Below, piece after piece: positions 60,632 through 64,000 of a stretch of 64,000 nt of DNA. The notes beneath the pieces were generated by a model. That model did no database searches, was not told the DNA's origin, and worked only from the letters and a program-made list of their open reading frames with translations. Location: contig NZ_CP036501.1 of the NCBI RefSeq assembly GCF_026230195.1, positions 496,001 to 560,000 on the forward strand. The letters are read 5' to 3'. The position numbers were made by a program, and so were the translations under genes. Source of the stretch: Candidatus Paraluminiphilus aquimaris (lineage in GTDB: Bacteria; Pseudomonadota; Gammaproteobacteria; Pseudomonadales; Halieaceae). The stretch's first letter is position 1, and each line of letters starts with the position of its first letter.

Positions 60632-60917
60632 AGTTAACCCGCCTGAGATTTACCATTGCAGGGCCACTCCTGTGTCGTTTTCAATCAATGTGGCTATCGC
60701 TACTGCACCCTTTGGCCGCAACGCGTTAACCACGCATTCATTCGACAGCCACAAGACAGACTTAAAATGTATCCAGCAAATGGGTCATTCCCCCGTTTCA
60801 AGCACCCTCAAACTCCCTGTGGCTCGTCGTGTGGGGAGTACTACCAGTCAAGACCAGTAGGATTCATCACGCGTGGATGCTACCTTTGACATCAACTTTC
60901 CCGGTTGCATTGGGCAA
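60632..60917. other. Divergent region between radC and coaBC
   Basis: About 286 bp. The promoters of radC (minus) and coaBC (plus) must lie here, but I find no convincing pair of -35 and -10 boxes. A plus-strand frame of about 77 codons in it lacks family resemblance. An in-frame GTG at 60873 could start coaBC with 15 extra residues. Confidence 0.35.
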
Positions 60918-62123
60918 ATGGCACGACTTTTAAATCGCAATTTCATCATTGGCGTCACAGGAAGCATCGCCGCGTACAAGGCGGCGGAAATCACACGTGA
61001 ACTGAAACGTGAGGGCGCCAATGTGCGCGTGATCATGACGGACGGCGCCTGCGAGTTCATTACGCCGCTGACGTTGCAGGCACTCTCGGGTAATCCAGTC
61101 CACACCGGCCTCCTCGATACCGACGCGGAAGCGGCGATGGGCCACATAGAACTGGCACGCTGGGCAGATGCATTGGTTATCGCTCCCGCTAGTGCCGATT
61201 CCATTGCGCGTCTCGTTCAAGGCAGAGCGGATGACCTCCTCGGCGCCTGCGCACTTGCAACGCCAGCCCCCGTTTTTGTTGCCCCTGCTATGAATCAGGA
61301 AATGTGGGCGAAAGCCGCGACCCAAGAAAATATCCATGTCCTTCAAAACCGAGGGATTACAATATTAGGGCCCGACTCAGGAAGCCAAGCCTGCGGTGAT
61401 ATCGGTGCAGGGCGGTTGCTCGACCCACGTGAAATCATCGAGTCACTCGTCGCCACCTTTTTGACAGGTCAACTCGCAGGCAAGCACGTTGTTATTACGG
61501 CAGGCCCCACCCGAGAACCACTTTGTCCAGTGCGCTACCTCAGCAACCGAAGCTCCGGAAAAATGGGCTACGCGCTCGCCGAGGCCTGCATAAATGCGGG
61601 CGCACGAACGACACTCATCTCAGGTCCAGTTCACTGTGAAGCGCCTCCCGGTGTGGTACTGGTCCCCGTGGAGACCACACAGGAAATGCTTGACGCCAGC
61701 ATGGCAGCGTCAGATGACGCAGATATTTTTATTGGCGCCGCCGCGGTTGTGGACTTCCGGCCCGAATCAGTGGCAACACAAAAAATAAAGCGTGAAGGGT
61801 CGACAACCATGGACCTTAAGCTGGTTTCCAACCCTGACATCATTGCCAGCATCGCAGCGCGCCAAGTGCGACCAAGCCTAGTCGTTGGCTTTGCCGCAGA
61901 GACAAATGATGTCACTACTTATGCGCGGAACAAGCTGAAAAAGAAGCGCTTAGATTTCATTTTTGCAAACGACGTCAGTGATTCTGCAATAGGGTTTAAC
62001 AGCGACAGCAATGCTGGGACGCTCATCAGCGCGGACAATGACATTACAATGGCATTGTCATCCAAGCGCGTACTCGCAGAAACCATGATTGCTGAGCTCG
62101 CGAAACACCTGCCAGAGACATGA
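60918..62123 (+). CDS. coaBC: Bifunctional phosphopantothenoylcysteine decarboxylase/synthetase
   Basis: Two steps of coenzyme A synthesis in 401 residues. The CoaC half has IIGVTGSIAAYKAAEITREL, IELARWADALVIAPASADS and VAPAMNQEMW (the FMN enzyme's active site). The CoaB half starts at VITAGPTREPLCPVRYLSNRSSG and contains AAVVDFRPESVATQKIKR. The start ATG at 60918 (MARLLNRNFIIGV) is favoured; the GTG at 60873 adds 15 residues. Its stop overlaps the next gene's ATG (ATGA). In Pseudomonas the neighbour would be dut, which is absent here. Confidence 0.94.
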   Translation: MARLLNRNFIIGVTGSIAAYKAAEITRELKREGANVRVIMTDGACEFITPLTLQALSGNPVHTGLLDTDAEAAMGHIELARWADALVIAPASADSIARLVQGRADDLLGACALATPAPVFVAPAMNQEMWAKAATQENIHVLQNRGITILGPDSGSQACGDIGAGRLLDPREIIESLVATFLTGQLAGKHVVITAGPTREPLCPVRYLSNRSSGKMGYALAEACINAGARTTLISGPVHCEAPPGVVLVPVETTQEMLDASMAASDDADIFIGAAAVVDFRPESVATQKIKREGSTTMDLKLVSNPDIIASIAARQVRPSLVVGFAAETNDVTTYARNKLKKKRLDFIFANDVSDSAIGFNSDSNAGTLISADNDITMALSSKRVLAETMIAELAKHLPET

Positions 62124-64000
62124 GTGCATCACGTCCGCCAGAAGGACATATTTCAGCCGAAGAGAGACGTAAGTTACTTATTGCGATTGGCGGCATTGCG
62201 CTCGCTGTTGTCCCTACCCTTGCGGCCGCTCTGTACTTAGTCGTCGGCCTATCATTTTCCGAGCAAAGTGCACTCTATAAAGCACAAGTAGATAACGCGC
62301 TTTACCAGCGTGCAGACCTGATCAAATCGGATATTGCCGCCATCAAAGATGGCTTGCAGCAAAGTCTATCTGATCGCTCTTTTGAGCAAAACCCAACATC
62401 GGCACTGCAATTGATCCCAGGTGGTCGTCAATTCCGCATTATTCCGCTGAGTGATATGGGCGTTGCGAGCCTAGACCCTGAAGACTACGGACTCAGTTCC
62501 TTGGTTTTGCTCGACAGAGTGCGCAAGACATTCGAGACCGGCGCCATAGGATTCGAGATTATTAAGCGTGAAGAAACATCTCAACTCGTTGCGGTTGGTC
62601 GATTCGAAACGCCCACACAGCGTGGTGTAGCCATTGCAACGCTGCACAGCCATATTCTTGCACGGTGGATGAGTGAGGCCCCCATTGGGCAGTTCAATCT
62701 CTGGCAGACCTTTGACGATGCACCCAGCATACAAATATCCGAGTCAGCTGAGTTTCTACCTACGGGATCGGGCGGCCCCATAAAACGAACGATCGAGGGA
62801 ACACCCTATATTTTAGGGCTGGATGTCGACCCCTCGATGATGCCATCAACACCGGCATTACCCTTCCTTTTTTGGCCTCTCATTTTAATAGGGCTCTTGG
62901 CCAGTTATTGGGTTCTCATCCTTAAGCGCCGCGCTGACTTAGAGGGTGACGTCAAACTCATTCTCGATACTGCCGACTCACGCGACCCCATAAGGTTGCA
63001 GCACTCGGAACTGTCACCTCTCGCCCTCACTGTAAGACAGCTCGCCTCAAATAATAGAAGTCGAATGCGACGCTCGGGCGCAGCCGCCATCCAGCCAGAG
63101 CAGGGTCAGGACATCGCAGCGCGAGAGCCACAAACGCCTCAATTAATTGCCAGCGAATGGACGACAGGGATTGGGGCATGGGTAAGGCTTGCCGAGTCTG
63201 AAACAGAAGCCGTGGAGCAAAATGCTTTAAAGAAGCTGGCGGTAGGTGTTGCAGGTCTTGCCGTGCGATCATCGGCACAATCGTTTGTGGTCTCTTGTCT
63301 GGGCGGAGACAGAGAAATCCGCGCCAAAACTTGTTTCATAAAAGCACTTCTCTCAGAAGGTGTTGACGTGATTGACGTGGGACACGTGCCCACTCCCATA
63401 GCACACATGGCAACCCACAATGGCACCTCATCGGGTGCCGCGTTGGTCCTTCAACGCGATACCAAGGACCGGTTGACGCTTGGCGCGCTCTACAACCGTC
63501 AGTGGGTAGAAGAAGGCTTCTGGCAGAAAATCACCGCGCTCTCTTATGAGCACGTTGCTACATCCTCCAATGGTCGGAGTATCAAGCTCAAGCTAGATGA
63601 TGATTACTGCGACCGCCTTTCGGCCGATATGGCCATGGCGGAAAATCTGCGCATAACCGTTGTCTGCGATAGCCCAATAACACTGTCCATAGCTGAGCAG
63701 AGCTTGCAAAAAGCATCGTGTGACGTACGCAGTGTTTGCCTTGAGCGAGGCTTCTCAGAAAGTGAGGCGCAGGCGCACTTTAGTGGCCATGAGGCAGACC
63801 TCCATTTTGTTTTGAACAGTTGCGCCTCGCGGTTAACCGTCTTTGATGCGCACGGCAATCGGGTTCGCGACGACCATATCTTCATGCTAATTAGCCGAGA
63901 TGCGCTAGCGAGACACCCGGGAAGCGATGTCATTATTGGCTATAAAGGCTCGCGGATCCTCTCGTCATTTGTCACTTCATGCGGAGGAGCCTCAAAAATG
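62120..64000 (+). CDS. AlgC-like membrane-anchored phosphomutase homologue, catalytic motifs lost, 3' end outside window
   Basis: 627 residues are visible. Two membrane helices (about residues 20-41 and 249-270) enclose a periplasmic domain, as in the long form of Pseudomonas AlgC. A phosphohexomutase-type domain then starts near residue 345. It is aligned by SGAALVL, ALLSEGVDVIDVGHVPTPI and ADLHFVLNS with AlgC. The phosphoserine loop (TGSHNPP in AlgC) reads LQRDTKD at 444-450, with Gln at the serine position. The metal loop DGDGDR reads NSCASR at 566-571. The YDIRG region reads EWTTGI at 346-351. The family is thus clear but catalysis is very unlikely; a binding or scaffolding role is inferred. 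The ATG overlaps the coaBC stop. Confidence 0.85.
   Translation, partial: MSASRPPEGHISAEERRKLLIAIGGIALAVVPTLAAALYLVVGLSFSEQSALYKAQVDNALYQRADLIKSDIAAIKDGLQQSLSDRSFEQNPTSALQLIPGGRQFRIIPLSDMGVASLDPEDYGLSSLVLLDRVRKTFETGAIGFEIIKREETSQLVAVGRFETPTQRGVAIATLHSHILARWMSEAPIGQFNLWQTFDDAPSIQISESAEFLPTGSGGPIKRTIEGTPYILGLDVDPSMMPSTPALPFLFWPLILIGLLASYWVLILKRRADLEGDVKLILDTADSRDPIRLQHSELSPLALTVRQLASNNRSRMRRSGAAAIQPEQGQDIAAREPQTPQLIASEWTTGIGAWVRLAESETEAVEQNALKKLAVGVAGLAVRSSAQSFVVSCLGGDREIRAKTCFIKALLSEGVDVIDVGHVPTPIAHMATHNGTSSGAALVLQRDTKDRLTLGALYNRQWVEEGFWQKITALSYEHVATSSNGRSIKLKLDDDYCDRLSADMAMAENLRITVVCDSPITLSIAEQSLQKASCDVRSVCLERGFSESEAQAHFSGHEADLHFVLNSCASRLTVFDAHGNRVRDDHIFMLISRDALARHPGSDVIIGYKGSRILSSFVTSCGGASKM

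Follow-up and report, generated by a model that had tools for sequence, protein, structure and literature searches.

The 64,000-nucleotide stretch of DNA analysed here (the window) covers bases 496001-560000 of a single 2,724,358-base contig of Candidatus Paraluminiphilus aquimaris, and ends inside a gene that lies between coaBC and argB. A sequence-only reading of the window had assigned this gene to the AlgC position, coupled to coaBC, and both points are borne out by its place and by the overlap of its start with its upstream neighbour (Table 1). The open frame of 627 codons given in that reading, however, is only the visible part of the gene, which leaves the window and comprises 795 codons when read from the genome (C1:558120-560504 plus stop). 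The argB gene starts 3 bp after the stop and is followed by pyrE, an exonuclease III/Crc-like gene, rph, a YicC-like gene, gmk and a spoT-like gene. The order coaBC-algC-argB with such downstream genes is that of the Pseudomonas algC locus. Its place between coaBC and argB, together with its N-terminal membrane module, identifies the gene as the AlgC orthologue of its marine Halieaceae (OM60/NOR5) host, and the genome contains no second AlgC-type match besides it.

Table 1. Features of the pseudo-AlgC locus, in window coordinates.
Feature	Position	Strand	Basis or remark
coaBC	60873..62123	+	Upstream neighbour; stop overlaps the pseudo-AlgC start (ATGA)
Pseudo-AlgC gene	62120..64000	+	First 627 of 795 codons; remainder and stop outside the window, genome C1:560001-560507
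N-terminal transmembrane helix, ~aa 16-46	62165..62257	+	Predicted; model of the N-terminal part of the window protein, helix 16-84
Periplasmic double-Cache-like sensor domain, ~aa 47-245	62258..62854	+	Predicted; structure matches to dCache domains; Pfam dCache_1 in 10/46 homologous N-termini
Second transmembrane helix and juxtamembrane helix-strand-helix, ~aa 248-323	62861..63088	+	Predicted; model; HAMP-linker-like arrangement that Pfam does not recognise as HAMP
Pseudo-phosphohexomutase domain, aa 346-785	63155..64000, running past the window edge	+	Pfam, phmmer, orthologue model
Former YDIRG loop, now EWTTGI	63155..63172	+	Alignment
Former catalytic serine codon (S108), now Gln445; loop LVLQRDTKD, canonical MITGSHNPP	63452..63454	+	Alignment
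Former metal-binding loop DGDGDR, now NSCASR	63815..63832	+	Alignment

The C-terminal domain of the protein is predicted to retain the four-domain fold of the alpha-D-phosphohexomutase superfamily. A phmmer comparison of the P. aquimaris protein (P0001) with Pseudomonas aeruginosa PMM/PGM (4il8) returned an E value of 1.3e-31, and the Pfam family PGM_PMM_III matched the domain above cut-off. In an AlphaFold2 model of the full-length orthologue from genome G006 (pLDDT 85.7), which stands in for the P. aquimaris mutase domain, the PMM domain matched P. aeruginosa PMM/PGM (1k35 and relatives) with a Z score of 41 and an rmsd of 2.4-2.5 over ~440 residues, at an identity of 21-22%. The active site was assessed at 19 positions, selected on established knowledge of PMM/PGM, which were read on an alignment with the P. 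aeruginosa enzyme and are given in its numbering. These positions are invariant across 38 AlgCs from other Halieaceae genera, save for one Y17N and one N110C; the P. aquimaris protein keeps two of the 19, R247 and K285. The catalytic phosphoserine loop T(G/A)SHNP is absent, S108 (Ser in 38/38 canonical copies) being replaced by Gln, and all three Asp residues of the metal loop DGDGDR are substituted. These two changes and that of the YDIRG loop, from which the sequence-only reading had concluded that all visible catalytic motifs were lost, are real, and the loss continues beyond the window edge, where the sugar-binding loop GEFSGH has become GDCDGA and the phosphate-binding loop RASNT has become IDDALAN. 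Judged from these residues, the protein is expected to lack mutase activity. The orthologue of genome G003, 64% identical to the P. aquimaris protein from end to end, is equally dead, and with four more genomes the fully dead state is found in six.

In the family as a whole, represented by 115 genomes from 27 genera, AlgC-type proteins are almost universal. About 40 copies were read from other genera, with those of G094 and G085 left out of the canonical set; every usable copy (38) was canonical, and no dead AlgC was found among these 38. In the host genus (57 genomes) none of the 18 AlgC copies read has the catalytic serine, and all 18 are free of internal stops and frameshifts despite the saturation of synonymous sites between most of them. 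The sequence-only reading had singled out relatives with intact TGSHNPP and DGDGDR loops at this locus as one observation that would speak against it. TGSHNPP is kept in no host-genus homologue, whereas the metal-binding aspartates persist in the clade of HTCC2080. HTCC2080 itself, which has lost the serine, retains 10 of the 19 site residues, and the residues intact in this form include the three metal-binding Asp, R247, H109, K118 and H329; the clade is altered at S108, N110, K285, H308, E325 and R421 (the last mostly to His). Outside the family, six unusual loci (L151, L153, L156, L158, L176 and L194) all encode the catalytic Ser. Only L158 (724-3240) among the six shows further changes, its loops reading SHNA, DGDGNR and GGLSGH, which possibly reflect early independent decay or assembly noise.

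The suggestion that a genuine AlgC might lie just downstream did not hold, as argB occupies that position; the canonical mutase of the genome is of the CpsG type and lies ~495 kb away. Its motifs are canonical, its gene adjoins those for a ManC-type enzyme and GalU, and CpsG is present in 17/17 high-quality genomes of the host genus. CpsG most likely supplies both mannose-1-phosphate and glucose-1-phosphate, and such cover of sugar-1-phosphate supply would leave AlgC free to lose catalysis.

The N-terminal membrane module, of the two-helix type, is newly assigned here, on the strength of structural modelling, as a double-Cache sensor resembling those of chemoreceptors. In a model of P. aquimaris residues 1-333 (pLDDT 88.8), the region between the membrane helices matched the dCache ligand-binding domains of PctA, Mlp24, CtaA and KinD with Z scores of 11-13, and nearly all of the 50 structure matches listed were dCache ligand-binding domains of chemoreceptors or sensor kinases. 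The best Pfam dCache_1 match among the homologous N-termini (Table 1) was 3.3e-7; the P. aquimaris protein itself gave none. The model places a helix-strand-helix after the second membrane helix, and HAMP was not among the Pfam families listed. The sensor module is common to AlgC orthologues generally and is not confined to the dead ones. At AlgC loci outside the genus (L137, L139-L202 and others, from many gammaproteobacteria) the PMM/PGM is apparently active and carries a fused, membrane-anchored double-Cache domain. Such coupling of AlgC to a sensor seems to have been little described: a search of the open-access literature for phosphomannomutase jointly with dCache found no paper. A search of the same literature for a bacterial pseudo-phosphomannomutase found nothing relevant.

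Selection on the gene was estimated as pairwise Nei-Gojobori dN/dS with a codon bootstrap. Only the dead pair G006/G027a and the serine-less pair HTCC2080 (G002)/G032 fall within the usable dS range, most other pairs being saturated; this applies to the sole pair for the P. aquimaris lineage itself, P. aquimaris/G003 (dN/dS 0.095 at a saturated dS of 2.9). In the dead pair (dS 0.27) dN/dS was 0.174 (0.129-0.237), compared with 0.075 for coaBC and 0.027 for argB. In the serine-less pair it was 0.074 (0.053-0.100), which does not exceed the coaBC value of the same genomes (0.098; argB 0.063). Analysis by region revealed that the dead mutase domain is the most constrained part of the protein. In HTCC2080/G032 the mutase domains had dN/dS values of 0.03-0.04 versus 0.155 for the periplasmic domain, while in G006/G027a D2-D4 had values of 0.07-0.14 versus 0.22, the figure of 0.32 for D1 resting on few changes. 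The sequence-only proposal of an intact, selected and membrane-anchored pseudo-phosphomutase is supported by these values, which lie far below 1.

Where in the domain selection acts is evident from the former active site. In a canonical sample (n=5) the site was 100% identical compared with 64% for the rest of the domain, whereas the corresponding identities were 0.84 and 0.82 in the HTCC2080 clade, and 34% and 44% in the dead group. As the site is of average or below-average conservation while the fold is constrained, selection has abandoned the site but still maintains the fold; such purifying selection on the fold after site loss is expected of a functional pseudoenzyme. Rates differ between the two forms. 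Relative to ArgB, mutase-domain dN had a median of 2.07 in canonical pairs, ranged from 0.64 to 1.87 in HTCC2080-clade pairs and came to 5.05 in the fully dead group, which evolves ~2.4 times faster than canonical AlgC on this scale. The HTCC2080 form is constrained as strongly as active AlgC, and the P. aquimaris form is constrained yet clearly relaxed.

The gene has also been lost repeatedly. It is absent from 32 host-genus genomes and from the second contig of the mixed metagenome-assembled genome (MAG) G027; in these coaBC almost abuts argB, the gap being ~115-370 bp compared with 2.4-2.6 kb where the gene is present. As absence was read from synteny, it is true absence and does not reflect missing contigs. 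On a tree of coaBC and ArgB, on which the long branches G007, G046 and G056 are less certainly placed, absence requires six changes (bootstrap range 6-6). C-terminal remnants of the gene persist in G011, G008 and G042, and such deletion scars identify the changes as losses, so that the host genus has seen at least six losses of the gene. One loss apparently occurred within the species itself. In G001, labelled as the same species, amino acids 1-46 are fused in frame to amino acids 720-795, leaving 46 + 76 residues. In the remnant 14 codons have changed nonsynonymously and 11 synonymously, versus 5 and 39 for coaBC plus argB (Fisher p 1.5e-4), as expected for a genuine deletion followed by drift of the remnant; the G001 assembly is fragmented (about 110 contigs, 80% complete). 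The description of the pseudo-phosphomutase as conserved is thus apt for the retained copies, which are under selection, but not for the genus, where losses reach apparently even into the species. MAG G027 has two coaBC-argB loci (L045/L048, on C252 and C170), the dead gene being present in the first of these states and deleted in the other, indicating that two related strains were mixed in one metagenome assembly.

Because selection maintains both the fold and the sensor in many lineages, the protein is most simply read as a membrane receptor whose pseudo-mutase output domain regulates a partner by binding, and on balance we hold this to be probable. AlgC, of which the gene encodes the orthologue, consists of a membrane helix, a periplasmic double-Cache sensor, a second membrane helix and a cytoplasmic phosphohexomutase. 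In the host genus the phosphoserine would have disappeared first, most likely in a single early event, and the other site residues later, with CpsG, present throughout the family, taking over sugar-1-phosphate supply. The remaining product would be a phosphohexomutase fold without catalysis, tethered to the membrane beneath a ligand-binding domain, the latter sensing a small solute in the periplasm. Through contact with a partner protein or binding of a sugar phosphate, the dead cytoplasmic domain may then relay the signal, most likely to envelope-polysaccharide or nucleotide-sugar supply. The double-Cache fold lends support to the sensor role proposed from the sequence. The dead AlgC, which selection preserves in many species while others have deleted it, probably now serves regulation and no longer catalysis. 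More tentatively, it may represent a type of transmembrane receptor in which a double-Cache sensor acts through a catalytically dead sugar-phosphate mutase, an already sensor-coupled AlgC having had its catalytic half converted into a pure binding output. Counted against the receptor reading are the six or more losses, the in-frame deletion in G001, the faster evolution of the dead group and the saturated dS of the G003 comparison.

The main rival is slow decay, according to which the gene became dispensable once CpsG covered the reaction and is on its way out through stepwise erosion of the site and lineage-by-lineage deletion, any leftover constraint serving merely to avoid a misfolded membrane protein or to keep a weak residual role. 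Repeated independent losses with deletion scars, one apparently within the species, the graded loss of the active site and the faster dead group all fit such decay, as do the small genomes of the host clade (PMC10100682). It is nevertheless rather unlikely given the 18 copies free of internal stops and frameshifts despite synonymous saturation between most of them, the dN/dS values of 0.07-0.17 with constraint strongest in the dead domain, and the HTCC2080 clade, which is constrained like active enzymes. A useful but dispensable regulator and a long-lived relic can be separated only in part, since either would be expected to vanish from some lineages; for the HTCC2080 clade, its strong constraint favours the dispensable regulator.

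That same constraint, together with the retention of 10 of the 19 site residues by HTCC2080, would also be compatible with changed catalysis, in which the HTCC2080 form, if no other, still acts on sugar phosphates but by a different route, such as one using bisphosphates. The six altered positions of that clade, the additional lack of all three metal ligands in P. aquimaris and a site no more conserved than the remaining domain render this improbable. Still less credence attaches to the view that the frame is kept open mainly as a bridge carrying translation from coaBC on to argB while the protein itself does little: the overlapping start and the 3-bp gap to argB suit a bridge, but many genomes have coaBC-argB without the gene, and a bridge would not be expected to select on amino-acid identity, contrary to dN/dS values well below 1 and domain-specific constraint. 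A sequencing, assembly or frame artefact was rejected as having a negligible probability, since full-length dead orthologues, G003 among them, occur in independent assemblies of five further genomes and nothing was found in its favour.

AlgC is known mainly as a soluble enzyme that makes precursors of alginate and LPS. The P. aeruginosa enzyme (PMM/PGM, PDB 1k35) derives from the orthologous locus and has the same four-domain fold (Z 41), but the P. aquimaris protein lacks all four of its active-site loops, and the crystallised P. aeruginosa chain is without the membrane and sensor part. The receptors and sensor kinases PctA, Mlp24, CtaA and KinD share the succession of membrane helix, double-Cache fold and membrane helix; their cytoplasmic output is a signalling or kinase domain, in contrast to the pseudo-mutase found here. 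That the phosphohexomutase superfamily can give rise to pseudoenzymes has a precedent in vertebrate PGM5 (aciculin), for which crystal structures are available (6y8x-6y8z; PMC7761743). Unlike pseudo-AlgC, PGM5 is eukaryotic and retains a substrate-binding site, with glucose-1-phosphate as a ligand; it has no membrane sensor and is not orthologous. A parallel for the proposed output is provided by GlmM, which inhibits the membrane cyclase CdaA/DacA by direct binding (PMC8573169, PMC6368335). GlmM is likewise a bacterial member of the phosphohexomutases, and its control of a membrane enzyme works by contact; in contrast to pseudo-AlgC it is catalytically active and forms a soluble chain of its own.

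The host genus and its sister genera form a natural series, from active AlgC through a serine-less and strongly conserved form and a fully dead but still selected form to deletion, in which it can be tested how an enzyme turns into a pseudoenzyme and when it becomes dispensable. The pairing of AlgC with a chemoreceptor-like double-Cache sensor in many gammaproteobacteria likewise suggests, as a testable idea, that the mutase step is under direct periplasmic sensing.

A 23-bp element, TGCGGCAT(C/T)(T/C)TCACATTGC(C/G)TTT, occurs in the coaBC-argB gap of 23 host-genus genomes, for example at L066 (G004:C32:17245-17267) and L067 (G030:C49:112424-112446). There is exactly one copy per genome, always shortly upstream of argB, and genomes that retain the algC-type gene never have it. 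In those gaps that were read, TTGC(C/G)T precedes CAT(G/T)CT by ~17 bp, a promoter-like arrangement that may have been acquired or exposed once the gene was lost.
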